Assembly: GCA_013177805.1 (NCBI GenBank)
Contig: JABLXU010000001.1
Coordinates: 124,001-188,000 of the forward strand
Source: Candidatus Omnitrophota bacterium
GTDB lineage: Bacteria; Hinthialibacterota; Hinthialibacteria; Hinthialibacterales; Hinthialibacteraceae
Length of the DNA stretch: 64,000 nucleotides
Direction: 5' to 3'
Shown here piece by piece: positions 52,586 to 64,000 of this stretch. Each line of letters opens with the position of its first letter. The stretch's first letter is position 1. Below the pieces are notes generated by a model. That model did no database searches. It saw only the letters and a list, made by a program, of their open reading frames with translations, and had not been told where the DNA came from. The position numbers and the translations under genes were made by a program.

Positions 52586-53200
52586 TTAGTCTATTTCCTT
52601 TGTGTATAGATTCATTTCACGGCCCAATGGGGTGACAAAACTTTTTTCTAAACTCCATCCATTTCGGAGATAAAATGAGTTTACTTTATCATTATTAAAT
52701 TTGTCAGTTGTGAGATAAACAGAACGAATACCTCTTTTATTTAATTCCTTTAAAAATGCATCGATCAATTGTTTACCGACATGCTTATTCTGATATTCTG
52801 GTAAAACGGCGATGGATGATAATTCGGCTCCGTCAACAGAATAAGCATCATTTTTTAGTCTCATTTTTACATTATGATATATCTTTTTGATTGTGCTCGG
52901 TTGATTAATGCATCGCATCAAAACAGCCAGGCCGAAACGAGGCCAATTCTTTCGTAATAAAATCTTGAAAAATTCCTTGGGTTTAGTGGAACCCGCAATA
53001 AATCCAATGACTTTTTCTTCTTTTTCTGTATCCACGGCCACAAGGGTGATAGCATTGGTTTTGTCATTTATGAATCCAGAATACATTATTTTCAAAAAAG
53101 TGGGACCGAGAAAAGTAAGGAAGAAATTGGGAAAAGACAACAGATGAACTGCAGTTATTTGATCTAAATAAAAAATATTTGCCTGAATTGTTTTTATCAT
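52586..53200 (-). CDS. GNAT-family N-acetyltransferase
   Basis: The 204-residue protein has the acetyl-CoA-binding motif A region AELSSIAVLPEYQNKHVGKQ (about 127-146) and the later VYLTTDKFNND and FYLRNGW. It is AT-rich, unlike the stub next to it. Its ATG overlaps the stop of the upstream glycosyltransferase by 4 bp, so it is the last gene of the polysaccharide operon. It probably acetylates an amino sugar of the repeat unit; this is inferred from context. Confidence 0.82.
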   Translation of the reverse strand: MIKTIQANIFYLDQITAVHLLSFPNFFLTFLGPTFLKIMYSGFINDKTNAITLVAVDTEKEEKVIGFIAGSTKPKEFFKILLRKNWPRFGLAVLMRCINQPSTIKKIYHNVKMRLKNDAYSVDGAELSSIAVLPEYQNKHVGKQLIDAFLKELNKRGIRSVYLTTDKFNNDKVNSFYLRNGWSLEKSFVTPLGREMNLYTKEID

Positions 53201-54312
53201 TTCATCAATATATTATTATAAATATCTCTTATTTTCTCTATTAATATCGACATTGAATAGTTCTCCTCTATATATTTTTTTAATTCAATGCCCATTTTCT
53301 TTGCCTCATCCCTATTGTCTGCTAAATATTCGATGTCTCTCACTACAGCATCGATATCACCCAATGGTTCCAAAAAACCAGTTTTTTCGTGGATAATAAC
53401 ATCGCTGCATCCAGGAATGTCATAGGAAATAACAGGTAAACCACAAGTTCCAGCCTCCAATACTACGCGAGGCATTCCTTCACGTTGAGATAAAAACAAA
53501 AGGGCATTGCAAGAATTCAAATATTTAATAATATCATATCGGAAACCTAAATAGTTTAGATAACCATTTTTTTCTTCGTTAATTATTTTTTGATGCAAGC
53601 TCTTGCAATTTCTTGAAATATCGCCCGCAAGCCAAAAAACAATATCGACGCGTTTGTTCTTAATCTTTTTACATACTTCAAGATAATCATATATTCCTTT
53701 TGATGGATGCAATCTTCCTACAAAAATTACATTAAATTTGCTTCTATCGACATCTTTGTGATAATCATTAAATGGTTTCATTGAGACAGCGCTTCCGACA
53801 AGTATATTTTTCCCTTTTGGAATATACATTTTTAATTCTTTTTCATCTATTCTATTTTGAAATAAAACACATGCTGCGCGTCTGGATGATAGTTTTAATA
53901 ATCTTAAAAATATTTTTCTCATTATTTTTTTGATCCATTTATCTTGGCCTACAAATAAACGTCCTAATCCACTAATTGTGATAATGCTTTTTTTATTGCC
54001 CGACAGAATAAACAAAGGGCCCAAAATATATAATTTTGTTGAATAAAAATGATAAATATCAAAGTGTTTTGTATTTACTTTTAAAAACAAATCCAATAAA
54101 TTCACCCATTCCGACCATAAAGAAAATCCTTCTCCCATCCTTAAATAATAATATTTTATTCCATCAATATTTCCGTTCATAGATGGCCAAAAAAAATTGA
54201 AATCATAAGTATCTTTTAATTCACTCGCAATTTTAAGCCGAAAGTCATTTCCAGGTAATTTTTTGTTAACAAAAATTGCTATTTTCTTTTTTGAATTATT
54301 TAATTCATTCAA
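53197..54312 (-). CDS. Glycosyltransferase family 4
   Basis: The 371-residue GT-B protein has FVGRLHPSKGIYDYLEV at the donor-domain start and the E-x7-E motif in SQREGMPRVVLEAG. It begins with a Lys-rich stretch and is cytoplasmic. It overlaps the polymerase gene upstream and the acetyltransferase gene downstream by 4 bp each, a tight operon. The composition is strongly AT-rich. It adds one sugar of the repeat unit; donor and linkage are unknown. Confidence 0.9.
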   Translation of the reverse strand: MNELNNSKKKIAIFVNKKLPGNDFRLKIASELKDTYDFNFFWPSMNGNIDGIKYYYLRMGEGFSLWSEWVNLLDLFLKVNTKHFDIYHFYSTKLYILGPLFILSGNKKSIITISGLGRLFVGQDKWIKKIMRKIFLRLLKLSSRRAACVLFQNRIDEKELKMYIPKGKNILVGSAVSMKPFNDYHKDVDRSKFNVIFVGRLHPSKGIYDYLEVCKKIKNKRVDIVFWLAGDISRNCKSLHQKIINEEKNGYLNYLGFRYDIIKYLNSCNALLFLSQREGMPRVVLEAGTCGLPVISYDIPGCSDVIIHEKTGFLEPLGDIDAVVRDIEYLADNRDEAKKMGIELKKYIEENYSMSILIEKIRDIYNNILMK

Positions 54313-55466
54313 TGATTAGTCCTCACATTAATTGAATTTATTACGCCAGAATTTTTTAGACTTTCATTTTTCAACAATAAAACAAAAGAAAGAAGTATCC
54401 AGAAAAGAGTAAATCGAAGACCTTGATGTGTTAAACCGTATGCAAGTGCAGGAACCAAATAAAGACAAACACGGAAACCACACATCATACATACGCGCAA
54501 AAGCGCAGCTCCAAAGAGTAGACTACCGGGTATACCATAGCAAAATATCAATGTCCCCCAACTTGAATGCAATTCACCCTGCATACTTGTATCATACCTT
54601 TCAAAAGCACCTTCACCAGCACCCAAAAATATCAAATCGTTATATAAAATGATTCTGTCATAACCTCGGCCTTCCCATGAATCATCCATGTCATGTCCAA
54701 TCATCATGATTCTGCCGAAAGCACTAGAGACAACTGTGTAACGAAACAAATAGTTTTCGTAATCTATACCAGCAATTAGAACGTAAGTGATTACAGACGT
54801 ACATATAATAATTAATAGTGCACGAATATTATTCAATGTATGTAAAATAATCAGAAAAAAAATGCCAACCATCGATGCCTTGGAAAGAGAAATGAGGGAT
54901 AAATATATAGATGCAGAAACACCTAGCATGGAAAGTAGCTTGTATTTGCCGATGTAATGATCATTTAAAAGGATCATAGATGTGGTGAGCAAGGCATAAT
55001 AACCCAGTTGGTTAGGATTATTAAAAAAACCTACTCCTCTTGCATTATCGATCGGCTCAAAATAAATAAATATAAACTGAGCAATAACTGTTAAAATTAA
55101 AGTAATTAGAAAAAAGTTGAAAAAATAATTTTTATATAAAGAATATAAATATAAAATATCAAAAATTACAACTAAATTAAATATATAATACAGTGAATTA
55201 ATTAGAATATGTAAATTATCAAGCGCAACCGACCAATAGATATTGATTATAAATGAATATATGGTGAACATAAGAAAAAAGATTAAAACCATTCTATTGC
55301 CTGACGGTATTTGAATTTTAGAAGACAAAATTATATCAAGAAAAATAAGAAAAGATAGGAAACAGACAACCCAATCTGCTATTTGCGGTGTGCCGCTTGG
55401 AAATAAATAAAAGGGACTTAAAAACATATACAAAAACCATGTAGTGAAAAAAAGGCATTTTTTCAT
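54309..55466 (-). CDS. O-antigen/polysaccharide polymerase, Wzy-like
   Basis: The 385-residue protein has about ten membrane helices over its full length and one large outer loop near residues 245-300, typical of Wzy/O-antigen ligase proteins, which share little sequence. The position between two glycosyltransferases and upstream of the flippase partner supports a polymerase that joins repeat units in the periplasm. It overlaps both neighbours by 4 bp. The composition is AT-rich. Confidence 0.78.
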   Translation of the reverse strand: MKKCLFFTTWFLYMFLSPFYLFPSGTPQIADWVVCFLSFLIFLDIILSSKIQIPSGNRMVLIFFLMFTIYSFIINIYWSVALDNLHILINSLYYIFNLVVIFDILYLYSLYKNYFFNFFLITLILTVIAQFIFIYFEPIDNARGVGFFNNPNQLGYYALLTTSMILLNDHYIGKYKLLSMLGVSASIYLSLISLSKASMVGIFFLIILHTLNNIRALLIIICTSVITYVLIAGIDYENYLFRYTVVSSAFGRIMMIGHDMDDSWEGRGYDRIILYNDLIFLGAGEGAFERYDTSMQGELHSSWGTLIFCYGIPGSLLFGAALLRVCMMCGFRVCLYLVPALAYGLTHQGLRFTLFWILLSFVLLLKNESLKNSGVINSINVRTNH

Positions 55467-56710
55467 TGTTGTTCACTGATAGATTTCAATTCGCTTAGAA
55501 TGCATGCCAGTTTTTCTGCTTGTGATCGTAGTGAATAGCAACGTACACGTTCTGATATTCCCACGTATCGGCTTGAATGATTCTTTATTTGATTCAAAAA
55601 ATGTAGAATTTCTTCCTCATTGGAGCAGAGACAACCTTTTCCCGTATCCTCCAAAATACCACCTATCTCTGAACCGGGACAAGCGACAGCCATGACGGGA
55701 GAAGGCAAAGGGAGGAGTTTTAAAAATTTGCCAGTCAATATACCTTTCTGGTAATCAAATTTTGGTGAAATATCTTCAAGAACTAAATTACAGAATGAAT
55801 GCCTTGCTTCTTTTATTGATTGTTGATGAGAAACCGGAGGTAGGATCTGAATATTTTTTGACAAATGATTTTTATTAGCAAAATTTAAAATAATGCTTTC
55901 GGATTTTCTAGGTCCTAAGGAACGCAATTTAATGAACAAATCTGGATGCATTCTCATCGCATTCAATACCATTAATATGGAAGGAATACGATTCTCATTT
56001 ATAGTACCACCATAAAACAAATACTGTCCATTCTGATTGAGCCGATCATGTAACGGTGCAGTATCATCATGCAAGTCTGACTGATTCCAACCATTGTAAA
56101 TTACATAACTACATTTATGAAAAAATGAATACAAAATACTTGCCAAATGATTGCTGATCGTTAGCAAGCCAACGGTATTACGAATTAGCTTCTCCTCCAT
56201 TAACCTATCAAAATAACTCAACAATTGATTTGAATAATGCAGCTGCCCCAGAGAACAAAGATCGCGATAATCCGCAATCCATGGAATTTTAAATTTCCTT
56301 GAAATATCATTTGCAATAAAGAAAGGGGCCGCTGGACCATATGAACCGATAATAAAATCCATTTGTGAAAAAATGGGGGCATATTGTTTTAAGGATCGTT
56401 GAACCGCCCAATACCAACGTAATGAATAATCAAAAATTTTTGAACGGCATTTTAACTTCATGACGATATTTCTTAACAACCCAATCCAACCATGAATTTC
56501 CTGAGATTTCTCATTATTTTTATGATTGAAACCGATTCGGATAATATTTTCTTCGGGAACTTTGCTAACCAGAGTACCGATGGAGTGGGTCGTTAGAATC
56601 CAGGATGTTATTCCATGATCACGTAAAAAACAGCTCAACTCATTGAAACGATGAGACGATATTACATTGAGTGGTGGAAAATTATAGGTGATAATGAGCA
56701 ATTTCATCAC
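55463..56710 (-). CDS. Glycosyltransferase, GT4-like
   Basis: The 415-residue protein starts MMKLLIITYNFPPLNVIS and contains IPWIADYRDLCSL, typical of the N-terminal domain of WcfI/WbuB-type GT4 enzymes. The C-terminal half shows FLKLLPLPSPVMAVACPGSE and an acidic GILEDTGKG in the donor pocket. It overlaps the polymerase gene by 4 bp. It is AT-rich and part of the same operon. The donor sugar is unknown. Confidence 0.85.
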   Translation of the reverse strand: MMKLLIITYNFPPLNVISSHRFNELSCFLRDHGITSWILTTHSIGTLVSKVPEENIIRIGFNHKNNEKSQEIHGWIGLLRNIVMKLKCRSKIFDYSLRWYWAVQRSLKQYAPIFSQMDFIIGSYGPAAPFFIANDISRKFKIPWIADYRDLCSLGQLHYSNQLLSYFDRLMEEKLIRNTVGLLTISNHLASILYSFFHKCSYVIYNGWNQSDLHDDTAPLHDRLNQNGQYLFYGGTINENRIPSILMVLNAMRMHPDLFIKLRSLGPRKSESIILNFANKNHLSKNIQILPPVSHQQSIKEARHSFCNLVLEDISPKFDYQKGILTGKFLKLLPLPSPVMAVACPGSEIGGILEDTGKGCLCSNEEEILHFLNQIKNHSSRYVGISERVRCYSLRSQAEKLACILSELKSISEQQ

Positions 56711-56728: not shown

Positions 56729-57601
56729 TCATATTTCAAAGGGCAGGTAACCACGGATTAGGCACAAATCATTGATAACAAAATTTCCAATGCCTTTTAT
56801 ACTCAATAAAAACATTAAATTATTTAAATTACGATAATCATTAAGATTAAATTCATATTTATATCTAGATTTTGTTAATGAAATCATTTTTGGTTTTAAA
56901 TAACGGTGTTTGGTTTGATTATCATTATTTGAATATATTGATACTATAGGTTCAATGGTTAGATCATCACTTGTAGTTAGATTTAGTGTATAGATTATTG
57001 TGTAGAAGCCTCCTTTTTGAAAAACTGGCAAATTCGAATTAGGCACATCAATAGTTATCCTTGCATTGCCACCCGAAAAATCGCCTCTAATGGCATAAGG
57101 GGAATAGCCACCGCTAACAATTTCACCTACAATATTCGCTGGACTAGAATTGTATCTTTTAACAAAGCAATTCGGCAAAAAACTACCTTCCAGATTGATA
57201 ATTTTAATATGACCAGATTTAGCTATATTTTTTTCTAGGTCAAACAATAAATTATCTTTTGGCTCCAGTTTGGGTTCCAGGAGGACCCATCGGCCGTCTT
57301 TGAATTCGCATTTGGCGCCGGTGAGTTCGTCGGTGTCGCCTTTGTAGAGTCCGCAGTCGGTGAAGAGGACCACCTGGCCTTCTTTCTCGTAATCCGCCCG
57401 CTTGTCCCACAGGGTTTCGGGAACCGGTCCGGTGGCCTGGGTCACGGTCTCCGCGGCCGGTTGTGTGGCGGCCGCGGCCGGTGGCTGGCTCTGTCCGCTG
57501 CCCGGGGAGGCCGGGCCGCAACCCGCCGCCAGCAAGAAGGCGGCCAGCAACAGCAGAGTATTCCAACTTAGCACGCTATGATTTTTAAGTAAAAATAGCA
57601 T
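56729..57601 (-). CDS. Mosaic lipoprotein of the polysaccharide locus
   Basis: The 290-residue product has a signal peptide ending in lipobox LLAAGC (Cys near 28). A Pro/Ala/Gln-rich linker follows (to about 60), then a GC-rich coded part to about residue 115, and a beta-rich domain that may bind sugar (FSGGNARITIDVPNSN, FYTIIYTLNLTT). Composition changes abruptly: codons 1-15 AT-rich, 16-115 GC-rich, 116-290 AT-rich. It is probably anchored in the outer membrane or inner membrane and placed outside. No family is certain. It lies 18 bp before the glycosyltransferase gene. Confidence 0.7.
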   Translation of the reverse strand: MLFLLKNHSVLSWNTLLLLAAFLLAAGCGPASPGSGQSQPPAAAATQPAAETVTQATGPVPETLWDKRADYEKEGQVVLFTDCGLYKGDTDELTGAKCEFKDGRWVLLEPKLEPKDNLLFDLEKNIAKSGHIKIINLEGSFLPNCFVKRYNSSPANIVGEIVSGGYSPYAIRGDFSGGNARITIDVPNSNLPVFQKGGFYTIIYTLNLTTSDDLTIEPIVSIYSNNDNQTKHRYLKPKMISLTKSRYKYEFNLNDYRNLNNLMFLLSIKGIGNFVINDLCLIRGYLPFEI

Positions 57602-57626: not shown

Positions 57627-57662
57627 TATACATCCTGCTGAAATTATACATCCTGCTGAAAT
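57627..57662. repeat. Exact 18-bp tandem duplication at the wecB stop
   Basis: TATACATCCTGCTGAAAT occurs twice head to tail (57627-57644 and 57645-57662). The second copy contains the last codons of wecB (FQQDV) and its stop, and the first copy repeats them after the stop. It lies at a junction between AT-rich and GC-rich DNA. Confidence 0.92.
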
Positions 57663-58720
57663 CCGGCATTCAACAGAATTTCGACGCATTTTACGGATGC
57701 CCGGCCGTCTCCGTATAGTGTTTCATGGAACACGCCGGGGGACAAGGCCCACGCGAAGAGCGCATCCACGTCCCCGGACAGATCGCCGCCGAGGCGGTTG
57801 GCGTCCAGGGCGGTCAGTTCCACCCATTCGGTTTGGTCGCGGGCGGTGATGCATTTTTTCCCGGCGAAGTAGGCCTCTTTTTGCAGGCCGCCCGAGTCGG
57901 TGATCACAAAGGCGCAGGCCCGCAGGTGGCCCAGTATGTCGAAATAGGAGAGCGGTTCTCGCAGTTCGACCCTGTGGTTGGGGCGGATGCCCTGATGATC
58001 CAGGATTTTTCGTGTGCGGGGGTGGAGAGGGAGCACCACCGGAACGGGCGAGCGCTCGAGCGCGTGGAGGATGTTCGCGAGGCGCGCGGGGTCGTCGGTG
58101 TTCTCGGCGCGGTGGATGGTGGCCAGGGCGAAGGGGCCGGGCCGGCCGGGGACGATGGCTTTCGCCTGGTAATGCAGAAACGCGTCGTACATGACATCGC
58201 CGATGACATGCGCGCCGCGCGTTATGCCTTCGCGTTCCAACTGCCGCCGGGCGTTTTCGGAGGGGCAGAGGAGGAGATCCGCGACGTGATCAGCGACGAT
58301 CCGGTTGATTTCCTCGGGCATGGCGCGGTTGAAACTGCGCAGGCCGGCTTCGACGTGCGCGACCGGGATATGGAGTTTGGCCGCGGCCAGCGCTCCGGCG
58401 AGGGTGGAATTGGTATCGCCGTACACGAGGACCCGGTCCGGCCGGCGATGGAGCATTTCGCGTTCCAGTCCCGCGAGCATGGCGCCGGTCATGGCGCCGT
58501 GCGGTCCCGAGCCGATGTTGAGGTTGGCGGCGGGCGCGGGGATTTCCATTTCGTCGAAAAACACCTGGCTCATGCCGTGGTCGTAGTGCTGGCCGGTGTG
58601 GATGATTTCCTCGTGGATGGGGCGTTCCGGGTGGTTCCGGTTATGTTCGGCGATGGCGCGGGTGACGGCGGCCGCCTTGATGAACTGGGGCCGCGCACCG
58701 AGGACGGTCAGGAAGCGCAT
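57644..58720 (-). CDS. wecB: UDP-N-acetylglucosamine 2-epimerase (non-hydrolysing)
   Basis: The 358-residue GT-B-like epimerase has HTGQHYDHGM, GDTNSTLAGALAA, HVEAGLRSFNRAMPEE and DSGGLQKEA, all standard WecB motifs with the catalytic Asp, Glu and His. It converts UDP-GlcNAc to UDP-ManNAc, a precursor of ManNAc-containing surface glycans. It is strongly GC-rich while both neighbours are AT-rich, so it belongs to the native part of the locus. Its start overlaps the upstream gene by 13 bp. The 18-bp duplication lies at its stop. Confidence 0.94.
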   Translation of the reverse strand: MRFLTVLGARPQFIKAAAVTRAIAEHNRNHPERPIHEEIIHTGQHYDHGMSQVFFDEMEIPAPAANLNIGSGPHGAMTGAMLAGLEREMLHRRPDRVLVYGDTNSTLAGALAAAKLHIPVAHVEAGLRSFNRAMPEEINRIVADHVADLLLCPSENARRQLEREGITRGAHVIGDVMYDAFLHYQAKAIVPGRPGPFALATIHRAENTDDPARLANILHALERSPVPVVLPLHPRTRKILDHQGIRPNHRVELREPLSYFDILGHLRACAFVITDSGGLQKEAYFAGKKCITARDQTEWVELTALDANRLGGDLSGDVDALFAWALSPGVFHETLYGDGRASVKCVEILLNAGFQQDV

Positions 58721-59859
58721 GGTGATGGAACTTTCATTAATAATCTTTCAATTTCTTTTAACAAAATATTAGCATTTACTTCAAAACATAGTTCATCTGC
58801 TGCTCGATGGCTTGCTTCTTTAAATTTTTTAATGTCTTGACTTGATAGAGAATTTAATATATTCGCAAGATCTCTTGGATCAAATGATTTTGCAACTACA
58901 CCTAGTTTGTAACGATTTACAATGTTTGCCATTTCAGGAGAAGGTCCAATAGCAACCGCAAGTCTTGCTTGTATATATTCAAATAATTTATTCGGTAATG
59001 AATGCATTTGATTAAAACCATTTGGCTCCAAGATATATAATCCGATATCATATTCATTTATTCTTTGGCATATATGTGGCATAGGAACAGGTTCAACAAA
59101 ACGAATTCTTTTATTATTCGCAGCCAGTTTTCTCAATTTTGTAAGATATTTTGGTTTAGATGGCATCAGCATAAAATCCAAAGTATATCGATCATCCAAG
59201 TATTCCATCAATTTAATCATTTTTTCTTGTTTTCTAGATGGATTGGTTCCGCCATGATGAATTATACGTATTGTTGCATTTTGAATAGGAGAAGGGTTCA
59301 AATTTTCACGATAGGGTGCATTTGTTATTACTCTTGAGTTTACCTTATATACTCGTAGGTACTCTTTCGCAATTCCTTCGCAAACGGTGATCATTCCCGA
59401 AACACGAGGCAGGTATGTTTTACATATATAATTTTTATAAGGCATAACAATCATCCGCCAAAGTAATCGGTCTTCAAACTGCCTTGGTGCATATTCATGG
59501 GCATCAAGCAATACCGGTCTACCGGATGCTAGTTTAAGGGCCAACGGAAGAGTTTCGACATCATTTGCAATAACAAGATCAAATTTCTGATTAATTATCT
59601 TTTCCACCCCACTTCGAACACACGAATTATGCCAATAGATTTGTTCATAACTTTTTAAAAGATATTGAATGACGAGAACTAACTTTTGCCAAAATGTCTT
59701 TCTTATATTATTAAACTTAATGTATTTTATGTTGAGATCAGGCTTGCAGCCAAATCCTGCAACAGTAATTTGGTATTGATTATTCAGAGTACGTATTTGC
59801 CTCAAGACCCGAGGATCACGCCGTATCTCGGAAAAAGATATTATCAAAATTATAGGCAT
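58708..59859 (-). CDS. Glycosyltransferase, GT4-like
   Basis: The 383-residue protein starts PIILIISFSEIRRDPRVLRQ, a common start for GT4 enzymes, with VIANDVETLPLALKL and LLDAHEYAPRQFED in the acceptor domain and YILEPNGFNQMHSLPNKLFE in the donor domain. It is AT-rich and overlaps wecB by 13 bp. It is part of the minus-strand polysaccharide operon. The sugar is unknown. Confidence 0.86.
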   Translation of the reverse strand: MPIILIISFSEIRRDPRVLRQIRTLNNQYQITVAGFGCKPDLNIKYIKFNNIRKTFWQKLVLVIQYLLKSYEQIYWHNSCVRSGVEKIINQKFDLVIANDVETLPLALKLASGRPVLLDAHEYAPRQFEDRLLWRMIVMPYKNYICKTYLPRVSGMITVCEGIAKEYLRVYKVNSRVITNAPYRENLNPSPIQNATIRIIHHGGTNPSRKQEKMIKLMEYLDDRYTLDFMLMPSKPKYLTKLRKLAANNKRIRFVEPVPMPHICQRINEYDIGLYILEPNGFNQMHSLPNKLFEYIQARLAVAIGPSPEMANIVNRYKLGVVAKSFDPRDLANILNSLSSQDIKKFKEASHRAADELCFEVNANILLKEIERLLMKVPSPCAS

Positions 59860-59893: not shown

Positions 59894-60544
59894 TTATATT
59901 CTTCTTAGAATAAAATATAGTTGGTAAGATGCAAATCTCATTTTCCCATAACGAACAATTGTAAAATATTTTGAAATTATTTTTTTTATTTGATTCATGG
60001 ATGTATTTAAAGATGAATCTATCTCCCATTGATGAGATTTAGATATATGAAATGTTCTTCTGGCTAATGAAAAACCTAGTAATTTGGATCCCACGAACGG
60101 CAATTGTATATACCATTGGAAATTTAGAAACAACTTTTGAGCACGAGGAATTGTAATGATCGCGTGAGTACTGATTTTTGAAATATTTTGAATGTATTTT
60201 TCGAAATTTTCGAATTCGGTATGCTCCAAAACCTCCGCACATAGGACCATGTCAAATGTCCTATCTTGGAAATGTTTTCCTAAATCATCAATCGATCCAA
60301 CGATATCGGGTTCAAGATTGGGATTGATATCATATGTCAATACCGATATGCCAATTGATTTTAAATAATTAGAAACAAATCCGTTCCCTATGCCAATCTC
60401 AAGAACTGTTGCCGGTTTAAGCTCGCGGACTAGCCATATTTGTTCAATAAAGCTCATGATCTGTATAAATGAAAAATATTGATCATTTAAATACATTGAT
60501 TTAGGTAAAATGGACTCATCATATATACTACGCTTTTTTTCCAT
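59894..60544 (-). CDS. SAM-dependent methyltransferase of the polysaccharide locus
   Basis: The 216-residue protein has VLEIGIGNGFVSNYLKSIGI (SAM site), VLTYDINPNL and FDMVLCAEVLEHTEFENF, a class I methyltransferase. A short helical start precedes the Rossmann domain. It may cap or modify the glycan chain, or act on a lipid-linked sugar; no substrate evidence is visible. It is AT-rich and separated by 34 bp from the glycosyltransferase. Confidence 0.85.
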   Translation of the reverse strand: MEKKRSIYDESILPKSMYLNDQYFSFIQIMSFIEQIWLVRELKPATVLEIGIGNGFVSNYLKSIGISVLTYDINPNLEPDIVGSIDDLGKHFQDRTFDMVLCAEVLEHTEFENFEKYIQNISKISTHAIITIPRAQKLFLNFQWYIQLPFVGSKLLGFSLARRTFHISKSHQWEIDSSLNTSMNQIKKIISKYFTIVRYGKMRFASYQLYFILRRI

Positions 60545-60591: not shown

Positions 60592-61845
60592 TTATAGGTA
60601 AGGTATATTGACTTTCGCTTTTACCTTAGATTTCATAAATTCACTTAAACTTAGCAACATTAATGCTTGTCCCCATCTTATGAAAGGAATGGATATCTTA
60701 TATTCAAAATTCATAATTTTCACAATTTTATAAATGAACCATCCATTTTTTTCCTGCATATTTCTGATGATCCAAGGTAGCAATTCTGATAATAATTGAT
60801 CTGATTCGCTAAAATCATTTGATAAGACAACATTGCACAATATGGCTTCAGCACAAGCGTGTATATCAATTGGATACACACGATCAGGACGTATTTTGGG
60901 GATCACTGAATTATGCATTTTGAAAAGCAGATTATTTTTATAATAATCAAAATAATTCAATAAACTTAACTTAAATTTCTCTTCATTCGTCAATTTCCAC
61001 ATTCTATATAAGCAACGTATTTCAAAGCCGCTGTGATATCCATCAATATGATTTGGATTATTATGATTTTGTTTCTTCCCCCAATAATAAATAGAACCAT
61101 CAGAATTTTGCTCATCTAGGGCATATTGTGCAGCTTTCATACCTATATCAATATAGTCATTATTACCAATTTCAATACCTATTCGAGTCAGAAATTCAGC
61201 TATCATTAAGTTGGAATTGTGAATGCAAAAATCATCTAATGGAGAATAACTAAAGCAAATTGAATATTTATCATTGTGAGTTATTCTATAATCATTTAAA
61301 AAATGCTCACATATTTTAATGCAAAAATTAATCCCTTTTTCATAATTTTCTGTTTTATAAGCTTCCCAGAATGCATCACCGGCAGCACAACTTACGGTAG
61401 AAAATGGAGTCCCAGAAGGAAAGAAAACAACACTATCCCAATCAAAGCAGTGTCCCCATCCTACCCCACAATATTCGCTACTTGCATTTTCTTCCAACCA
61501 ATTCAAGCAATGGAAAGCCTTTTCTCTAAAGCTATTTATTCCTGTTATACTCAATAAATTAAAATAAGATTTAGCGAAAAGCGCCATCGCAAGAGGATTT
61601 ATATGTTTCTTAACACCTAATAATTTGCGTATTTGAATAGGAAAAAGATTTTCAAAAATAATGATAGGATATCTTGTGAACTTAAGTATTAATGAACGAT
61701 TTTTATTAGTGAAAAGGTATCGATACAAAGGTATTGATTTAATGTCATACGGATCGTATCCATCCCATCCATTTGAATCAACCCACTTTTCCAATCGCAG
61801 AATGGAATCCCAAACAAGTTCTTGTATTTCATGTTCAAGTATCAT
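60592..61845 (-). CDS. (alpha/alpha)-barrel protein of unknown function in the polysaccharide locus
   Basis: The 417-residue cytoplasmic protein shows repeated helix pairs with aromatic and acidic patches (GVGWGHCFDWDSVVFFPSGT, NHIDGYHSGFEIRCLYRMWK), as in (alpha/alpha)6 toroids of glycan lyases, epimerases and cyclases. Similar proteins occur in O-antigen loci under various names, some of them misleading. It may act on a lipid-linked sugar. It overlaps the flippase gene by 4 bp. AT-rich. Confidence 0.6.
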   Translation of the reverse strand: MILEHEIQELVWDSILRLEKWVDSNGWDGYDPYDIKSIPLYRYLFTNKNRSLILKFTRYPIIIFENLFPIQIRKLLGVKKHINPLAMALFAKSYFNLLSITGINSFREKAFHCLNWLEENASSEYCGVGWGHCFDWDSVVFFPSGTPFSTVSCAAGDAFWEAYKTENYEKGINFCIKICEHFLNDYRITHNDKYSICFSYSPLDDFCIHNSNLMIAEFLTRIGIEIGNNDYIDIGMKAAQYALDEQNSDGSIYYWGKKQNHNNPNHIDGYHSGFEIRCLYRMWKLTNEEKFKLSLLNYFDYYKNNLLFKMHNSVIPKIRPDRVYPIDIHACAEAILCNVVLSNDFSESDQLLSELLPWIIRNMQEKNGWFIYKIVKIMNFEYKISIPFIRWGQALMLLSLSEFMKSKVKAKVNIPYL

Positions 61846-63317
61846 GTTCTTGTTTTGTTGAATGAATAATTCAGAAAGTCAAAGCTATAAATATAATAAA
61901 GAAGGACTATAGCTAGAGAAACAAGCAAAACATCTCTAGACTCAAATTTGTATAATTTCATAATTACTAACAACAATCCAAGTGGAAGAAAATACAAGGA
62001 ATTATTTCCAATAAGAACGATGTATCGAGTAAATGAGTTTCCTGATATTATCAATATCCAAATAAACAAGTATCCGTATATAATAACCCCACTAGCAGTA
62101 AATAATAATAAGGTCAAATACACACTATCAAATACTCCTCCCAGGAATAATGAAAGAAAACGAGTCGCTAACAAAAATAATTGTATGAAAAAAGCCACCT
62201 CTAATTTTTCGAAAATATTTATTAATGAAGCTAATGGCGCAGAAATAAATTGCATAAATATCCATAAGCTCATTATTTGGATGTACACACCAGCTTCAGA
62301 CCAATTCAATCCAAAAACCACTATACAAAAGTCCTTACCAATTACTGTAAGTAGCAGCATCGGAAACAGGCCGATCATCAACAAGCGACGAAAGGTAATA
62401 TCTACAAGTAATGATATTGTACCTTCCTTTTTGGCTATTGCTGCCCGTTGAAAAAAAACCTGTCCAATCGCAGCACCTATCAAACTCATCGGCATACTTA
62501 ATATTCGATGGCCTAGGGAATAGAATCCCACAACTGACGAAGAAAAAAACACCGAGAGCAATAAAGCCGGCAATTGAGAAGAGGTCGTGTTTAATAGTGT
62601 TGACCACGTGCTTATCATCGGGAACTTCTTATATCTCCTCCCCCCCCTGGCCATTCCTTGCCAGCGGATGGCTTTCCAGAAAGTGGCCCGGTCGTCGCGC
62701 CAGATTTGCTCGCCGAGGACGGCCGTGGAGATGGTCTTGCCCACCACGTTGGCCCCGATAAGGCTCCCGCCGGTGGCGTAGCCGGCGTATCCCGCGCCCA
62801 GTTGCGTGGAGACCGTCGCGGCCGAGCTGGTCACCCGGGCGATTGACAGGCGGCCGAATTGCTTGGTACGCGAGTTCCAGTAGTTCAAGGCTTGGAACAC
62901 CCCATCCAGCAGGACGGTCACGGGAATCAACCAGAGGTACGGCTTCAGGCCGGGAGCGTTAAGCCAGCCCAGCAAGGTTTCTCCTCCCCACCCGATCGCG
63001 AGAGTGGTCAAGCACGTGACTATGAGAGAGAAACCCAGGCTTACGGCCAGGAGATTGGCGGCTTCCTCATCCGACTCGGGAAGCATGATGGCCAGTTCGT
63101 AACGCAGGCAGGCGATGACACCCACGATGCTGGTGATGGAGAGATAGATCGCCAGTGTGCCGAAATCCTCCGGTGTGTACAACCGCGCCAGAAAGGGCGA
63201 GGCCAGCACCATCAGTCCTTGGGCGATGGTCGTGCCGGAGACCAGTTTGAACACGTCCCCGGCGAAGGAGGAGGATTTAGGGGTGGCGGCGGTTGATTCC
63301 ACGGGAGGTGTTTTCAA
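61842..63317 (-). CDS. Polysaccharide flippase, Wzx-like, chimeric composition
   Basis: The 491-residue protein has about twelve to fourteen membrane helices of the MOP/PST family, starting with FKLVSGTTIAQGLMVLASPF and LARLYTPEDFGTLAIYLSI. It moves undecaprenyl-linked repeat units across the inner membrane for the Wzy polymerase. Codons 1 to about 225 (down to 62640) are GC-rich and the rest is AT-rich, with the switch just after MARGGRRYKKFPM. No frame break occurs, so the gene is intact but mosaic. The downstream barrel gene overlaps by 4 bp. Confidence 0.9.
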   Translation of the reverse strand: MKTPPVESTAATPKSSSFAGDVFKLVSGTTIAQGLMVLASPFLARLYTPEDFGTLAIYLSITSIVGVIACLRYELAIMLPESDEEAANLLAVSLGFSLIVTCLTTLAIGWGGETLLGWLNAPGLKPYLWLIPVTVLLDGVFQALNYWNSRTKQFGRLSIARVTSSAATVSTQLGAGYAGYATGGSLIGANVVGKTISTAVLGEQIWRDDRATFWKAIRWQGMARGGRRYKKFPMISTWSTLLNTTSSQLPALLLSVFFSSSVVGFYSLGHRILSMPMSLIGAAIGQVFFQRAAIAKKEGTISLLVDITFRRLLMIGLFPMLLLTVIGKDFCIVVFGLNWSEAGVYIQIMSLWIFMQFISAPLASLINIFEKLEVAFFIQLFLLATRFLSLFLGGVFDSVYLTLLLFTASGVIIYGYLFIWILIISGNSFTRYIVLIGNNSLYFLPLGLLLVIMKLYKFESRDVLLVSLAIVLLYYIYSFDFLNYSFNKTRT

Positions 63318-63560: not shown

Positions 63561-64000
63561 TTACCATTCCGCGATCCGTTTCACCACCATTTCTTGTTGT
63601 TCCGCGGTGAGTTCGGGGTAGATGGGCAAGGCCAGGGTGGTGTTCGCCGCGTGTTCGCTGACGGGCAGGCTGCCCCCGGAGTAGCCCAGGCGCGCGAAAC
63701 ATTTCTGGAGGTGCATGGGCACGGGGTAATAGATCTCGGTCCCGATGCCGTTCTGTTTCAGGTGAGCCATCAGGGCGTCGCGGTTTTCGACCTGGATCAC
63801 GTATTGATTGAAGATATGCCGGTTTTGTTTAACGGCGGGCAATTTGATTTTCGTTCCCGCCAGGCCGGCTTCTTCGAACAAGGCGTCGTATGTCCGGGCG
63901 TTGCGCTGGCGGGCGGCGGTCCATTCGTCCAGATGGCGCAGTTTCACGCGCACGATGGCTGCTTGCAGCGCGTCGAGGCGGAAGTTGCCGCCCACGAGGC
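63561..64000 (-). CDS. DegT/DnrJ/EryC1-family aminotransferase, C-terminal part
   Basis: The frame is open to the right edge, so the N-terminal part with the PLP lysine lies outside. The visible 146 residues hold [18 protein letters not shown], which follows the PLP region in this family, then [10 protein letters not shown] and [15 protein letters not shown], ending with [18 protein letters not shown]. These enzymes transfer an amino group to a keto-sugar nucleotide. GC-rich, like wecB. It would supply an amino sugar for the polysaccharide, possibly the one acetylated by the GNAT protein at 52586. Confidence 0.93.

Follow-up and report, generated by a model that had tools for sequence, protein, structure and literature searches.

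A very probably chimeric wzx flippase gene at the edge of an AT-rich cassette, with its seam between the two helical bundles

Wzx flippases carry sugar chains across the membrane. In a genome of a Candidatus Omnitrophota bacterium, a wzx-type gene changes its composition partway through one open reading frame, and this raises a question: is it a single gene of odd composition, or have two wzx genes been joined in it, and if so, where in the protein does the seam fall? By the window we mean the whole stretch of 64,000 nucleotides that was analyzed (GenBank assembly GCA_013177805.1, contig JABLXU010000001.1, positions 124,001 to 188,000 of the forward strand). The gene sits there in a surface-polysaccharide cluster, together with transferases and a chain-length (Wzz-like) protein, and the features that concern us are these, in window coordinates:

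63561..64000 (-): DegT/WlbC-type aminotransferase gene, 3' part, GC-rich, upstream of wzx; it continues past the window (L040:3561-4688)
61842..63317 (-): wzx-type MOP flippase gene, very probably chimeric, 491 aa, with PF13440 and PF01943 and a MurJ/WzxE fold
62649..63317 (-): GC-rich 5' part of wzx, codons 1-223, TM1-TM6 (N-bundle), chromosome-like codon usage
62619..62642 (-): seam, that is, the support interval of the composition break, at the end of the inter-bundle helix (residues 219-228), with an 8-G run at its upstream edge
61842..62648 (-): AT-rich 3' part of wzx, codons 224-491, TM7 onward (C-bundle), cassette-like codon usage
60592..61845 (-): AT-rich cassette, ORF of 417 aa with no Pfam or NCBIfam match
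59894..60544 (-): AT-rich cassette, SAM-dependent methyltransferase
58708..59859 (-): AT-rich cassette, glycosyltransferase family 4-like
57644..58720 (-): wecB/wlbD-type UDP-HexNAc 2-epimerase, GC-rich, of backbone-like composition (codon log-odds +277)
56729..57601 (-): second ORF with a switch from GC-rich to AT-rich, at codon 113 (~57263)
52586..56710 (-): second AT-rich block, with a family 1-type glycosyltransferase, a GNAT acetyltransferase and two ORFs without Pfam match

The composition switch inside wzx is both large and abrupt. GC3 falls from ~0.79 in the 5' part to 0.32 in the 3' part; measured per 20 codons, it ranges from 0.65 to 0.95 up to codon 220 and from 0.2 to 0.5 from codon 241 onward. 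The maximum-likelihood GC break, located to the single base, is at nucleotide 683 (window 62635, LLR 59), and its 2-unit support interval (62619-62642) spans only ~25 bases. The GC3 change-point has an LLR of 58.7, compared with a maximum of 11.9 among 5000 codon shuffles. We also scored codon usage by log-odds under two tables, one for the chromosome (75,766 codons) and one drawn from the seven AT-rich cassette genes: codons 1-223 score +155 nats and codons 224-491 score -117 nats, with the optimum for the switch at codon 226 (window 62640). A sequence-only reading of this DNA had described 225 codons of chromosome-like usage, ending at about 62640, followed by codons like those of the downstream transferase genes; the change-point, the codon-usage optimum and the two log-odds scores all bear this out.

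How unusual is such a switch? Among 308 ORFs of at least 150 codons (123,161 codons) from ~448 kb of sampled, partly overlapping sequence of this genome, wzx ranks first for an internal GC3 switch; because two sampled stretches overlap, it was entered twice. Next come the ORF at 56729-57601, in the same window, and a Tad-pilus-type gene on another contig. The latter encodes a TadE/G-like pilus protein (L055:4682-5887, G000 contig C10), lies inside a pilus-assembly cluster and drops from GC3 0.75 to 0.33 at codon 152. Homologues were compared as well: the N-minus-C difference in GC3 is ~0.47 in wzx and at most 0.17 across 84 homologues from Anaerolineae, Desulfobacterota, methanogens and others. 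The switch is thus not a family property of these flippases.

The frame (61842-63317, minus strand) begins with a TTG start codon and is open throughout; its translation matches PF13440 (6.5e-24, 85 bits against a cut-off of 23) and PF01943 (41 bits against a cut-off of 28) in Pfam. A sequence search of the PDB gave no useful match, but a comparison of folds did: the AlphaFold model (mean pLDDT 87.7) consists of two helical bundles, and Foldseek matches it to MurJ and WzxE (E ~1e-6, TM up to 0.79). The product shares its fold and two-bundle layout with these proteins (PMC11706664; PDB 6nc6, 5t77, 9g9n), while differing from them in sequence (~13% identity) and, at 491 aa, from WzxE in length (~410 aa).

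Placing the seam on this model shows where the two parts meet. TM6 (183-216) and TM7 (231-257) are connected by a short helix (219-228) that links the N-bundle with the C-bundle; the seam, at codons 224-226 by codon usage and 225-233 by base composition, falls in or just past this helix. In WzxE, it is the movement of TM7 that switches the bundles between the inward- and outward-facing states (PMC11706664). Homologues align across the seam without a gap, beside the conserved motif R-Y-K-K-F-P. The run of eight G at 62640-62650 is a place where slippage would shift the frame; runs of at least eight G or C occur 18 times in the ~448 kb sampled, so that they are uncommon but not unique. Since homologues align gaplessly through the seam, a frameshift or insertion at this run is ruled out, and the earlier description of a frame that runs through without a break is upheld.

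The genes on either side of the seam belong to different compositional classes. Upstream of wzx, codon usage is chromosome-like in the genes for an UpxY/RfaH-type regulator, the Wzz-like protein, a large membrane protein, WlbA, WlbB and DegT, and it is so again in wlbD, unlike in the cassette genes between. Between the WlbB and DegT genes, immediately to the right of the window, is a HepT-like protein gene of intermediate codon usage (L040:4714-5175). Going by family matches, WlbA, WlbB, DegT and the WlbD-type epimerase resemble the UDP-diacetamido-sugar pathway. In other genomes, too, related wzx genes have these pathway genes as neighbors (WlbA, WlbB, DegT, wzx and WlbD co-occur, for example, in L123, L128 and L131), an arrangement consistent with AT-rich cassettes interrupting a resident backbone that is GC-rich.

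The ends of the AT-rich segments are informative. The last codons and the stop of the glycosyltransferase gene (58708..59859) lie in wlbD sequence, and the wlbD start codon directly abuts AT-rich DNA; the other edge of the cassette (~58722) is thus also at a gene overlap (58708-58722). The second AT-rich block starts at ~57263, again within an ORF (56729-57601), in which GC3 goes from 0.73 to 0.21; this ORF has a lipoprotein-like N-terminus by eye and no Pfam match. By eye, too, one of the two Pfam-less ORFs in that block (52586..56710) encodes a Wzy-like membrane protein and the other a transferase-like protein. A 26% homologue of the 417-aa cassette ORF is located downstream of wzx in L129. 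The 3' part of wzx matches the adjoining transferase cassette in codon usage and the upstream genes match the chromosome, in agreement with the proposal that the seam is the edge of an AT-rich cassette.

Do the two halves also differ in ancestry? Judged by protein similarity, they have partly different nearest relatives. The nearest relative of the N-half is an Anaerolineae protein (L061/L005, isolate MO53) with 66% identity, whose C-half is only 43% identical to ours; it comes from a cluster that likewise contains WlbB, DegT, WlbA and WlbD, and its gene has no comparable GC3 step (0.43 to 0.48). The excess of N over C identity between the query and L061 is the largest among 1035 pairs (core-family mean N minus C -2.5, SD 6.1). 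In the N tree the two are joined (support 99/94); in the C tree L061 groups with L070 (95/92) and the query is placed elsewhere. With the C data, the AU test rejects a grouping of query and L061 (p 0.007; p 0.015 without long branches). Taken alone, the sub-blocks of residues 224-320 and 320-478 do not reject it (p 0.14 and 0.11). The phylogeny thus lends moderate support to different histories of the two halves.

The separate searches proposed in the sequence-only reading divide: L061 distinguishes the halves, while L070, also from Anaerolineae, is among the closest relatives of both (60% N, 51% C). The exact break is not placed by protein similarity alone, and similarity to L061 by itself would put it near residue 300. 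Given this, the non-significant sub-blocks and the closeness of L070 to N-half and C-half alike, it is on DNA composition that the placing of the seam rests. The C tree pairs the query with L003 as sisters, but weakly (91/80, on two long branches); this grouping is not rejected by the N data (p 0.46) and was not used as a claim of parentage. Neither a parental gene nor a sister strain turned up among the relatives or in the collections, which contain no close strains, and the plasmid collection held distant relatives only (at most 36%). Within the genome, no stray parental copy of either half was found, and the other PF13440 gene (L153) matches neither half.

Together, composition, codon usage, the conserved frame, the gapless seam and the partly different relatives concur with the original suggestion of a chimera: with one half GC-rich, the other AT-rich and the seam in the inter-bundle linker, the gene is very probably a hybrid that arose when a block of sugar-coat genes was spliced in, the edge of this AT-rich cassette recombining in frame within wzx. 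The incoming block would have comprised the 3' part of another wzx and its downstream transferase genes, and would have entered, by recombination, a resident cluster of GC-rich surface-polysaccharide genes (regulator, Wzz-like protein, large membrane protein, WlbA, WlbB, DegT, wzx, WlbD), its two ends falling at the bundle linker within wzx and at the beginning of wlbD; the joined wzx would have kept its frame. In MOP flippases each bundle moves as a semi-rigid body. For this reason, and since both parts fold together in the prediction, the hybrid probably yields a complete flippase. It would flip a repeat unit that retains the resident diacetamido sugar, with the remainder made by the incoming transferases.

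One part of the original account found no support. The N-terminal helices had been called native, and the locus was to be compared in related genomes; yet in 13 further genomes of the phylum, none of the flippases found is similar to either half (best ~22% over 114 aa), and 'native' is unsupported. Because the nearest relatives of the N-half are Anaerolineae (Chloroflexota) proteins, its chromosome-like GC shows only longer residence or a donor of similar GC. These comparisons also bear on where the recombination took place: the chimera, or a larger part of the mosaic cluster, may have been assembled in another species and imported ready made, the boundary being an old seam. This reading differs from in-frame recombination at the present locus in place, not in mechanism, and we regard it as possible but rather unlikely. 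The 13 genomes speak for it, as do the best same-family matches to WlbD (36%) and WlbB (59%, as part of longer ORFs), so that the GC-rich backbone need not be ancestral; on the other hand, the GC-rich genes and the N-half fit the local codon usage, as a recent unrelated import need not.

A broader proposal is that flippases of this family repeatedly exchange their halves as modules, the bundle linker being a hot spot for the joins. In other pairs, too, the N and C parts point to conflicting relationships (L070/L095 rejected on the C data at p 6e-5, L072/L075 at p 0.018), although N-tree support for several of these is weak, and a stray C-half gene in the Anaerolineae genome G066 points the same way. 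The similarity of adjacent 80-residue blocks, however, remains correlated at 0.51-0.58 across positions 200-230 in the bacterial set, without a dip at the linker, and the correlation drops at 305-350 instead. The scan gives no support to the linker as a family-wide hot spot, and we consider recurrent exchange doubtful. The same low confidence attaches to the specific version in which the C-bundle would travel with the repeat-unit transferases, the N-bundle would stay with the resident cluster, and hybrids would arise repeatedly at the TM6-TM7 linker.

The stray gene of G066 (L133:10792-11754, 320 aa) merits description of its own. It stands beside a full-length wzx, is 60% identical to the C-half of the wzx of G348, with which it groups at 100/100 in the tree, and some of the same gene kinds follow it. 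Its beginning looks like the captured start of an acetyltransferase gene: by eye, 12 of the first 18 residues resemble those that open one such gene in G348 (L134:8118-8672).

Two further readings are very improbable. A single wzx of odd internal composition, owing for instance to a C-half under relaxed constraint or with a hydrophobic codon bias, would find some backing in the slightly higher N-half GC of several homologues and in the distal C-half, the fast-evolving part of the family, but not in a step that is far beyond the range of the 84 homologues, takes ~25 bases and leads into a C-half like the neighboring cassette genes. A misjoin of contigs from two organisms in this metagenome-derived draft (93 contigs, 5.2% estimated contamination, an 8-G run at the seam) is contradicted by the kept frame and gapless alignment at a homologous position, by GC-rich sequence on both sides of the AT-rich block (>50 kb left, ~20 kb right) and by the second in-frame switch at ~57263.

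Mosaic polysaccharide clusters with junctions inside genes are already known (PMC3715488), and mosaic genes as such are a known kind of event; the point of interest here is the position of the seam between the two bundles. In the mosaic O-antigen clusters of Salmonella, the junctions lie in sugar-synthesis genes or fuse unrelated genes (PMC3715488), whereas here a full-length flippase appears to combine two wzx parts that meet at homologous positions, and the lineage is known here from a draft genome only. A literature search, with most subscription journals outside its scope, did not turn up any Wzx chimera with its joint between the bundles. Which part of Wzx chooses the cargo is still unclear (PMC8561386), and a natural hybrid joined between its bundles would be a ready-made test object for flippase specificity. 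A working hybrid would mean that each bundle can function with a foreign partner, and specificity for the incoming sugars may then reside in the incoming half. The locus would also add one more clear case of a surface-polysaccharide cluster altered by recombination that ends within a gene.
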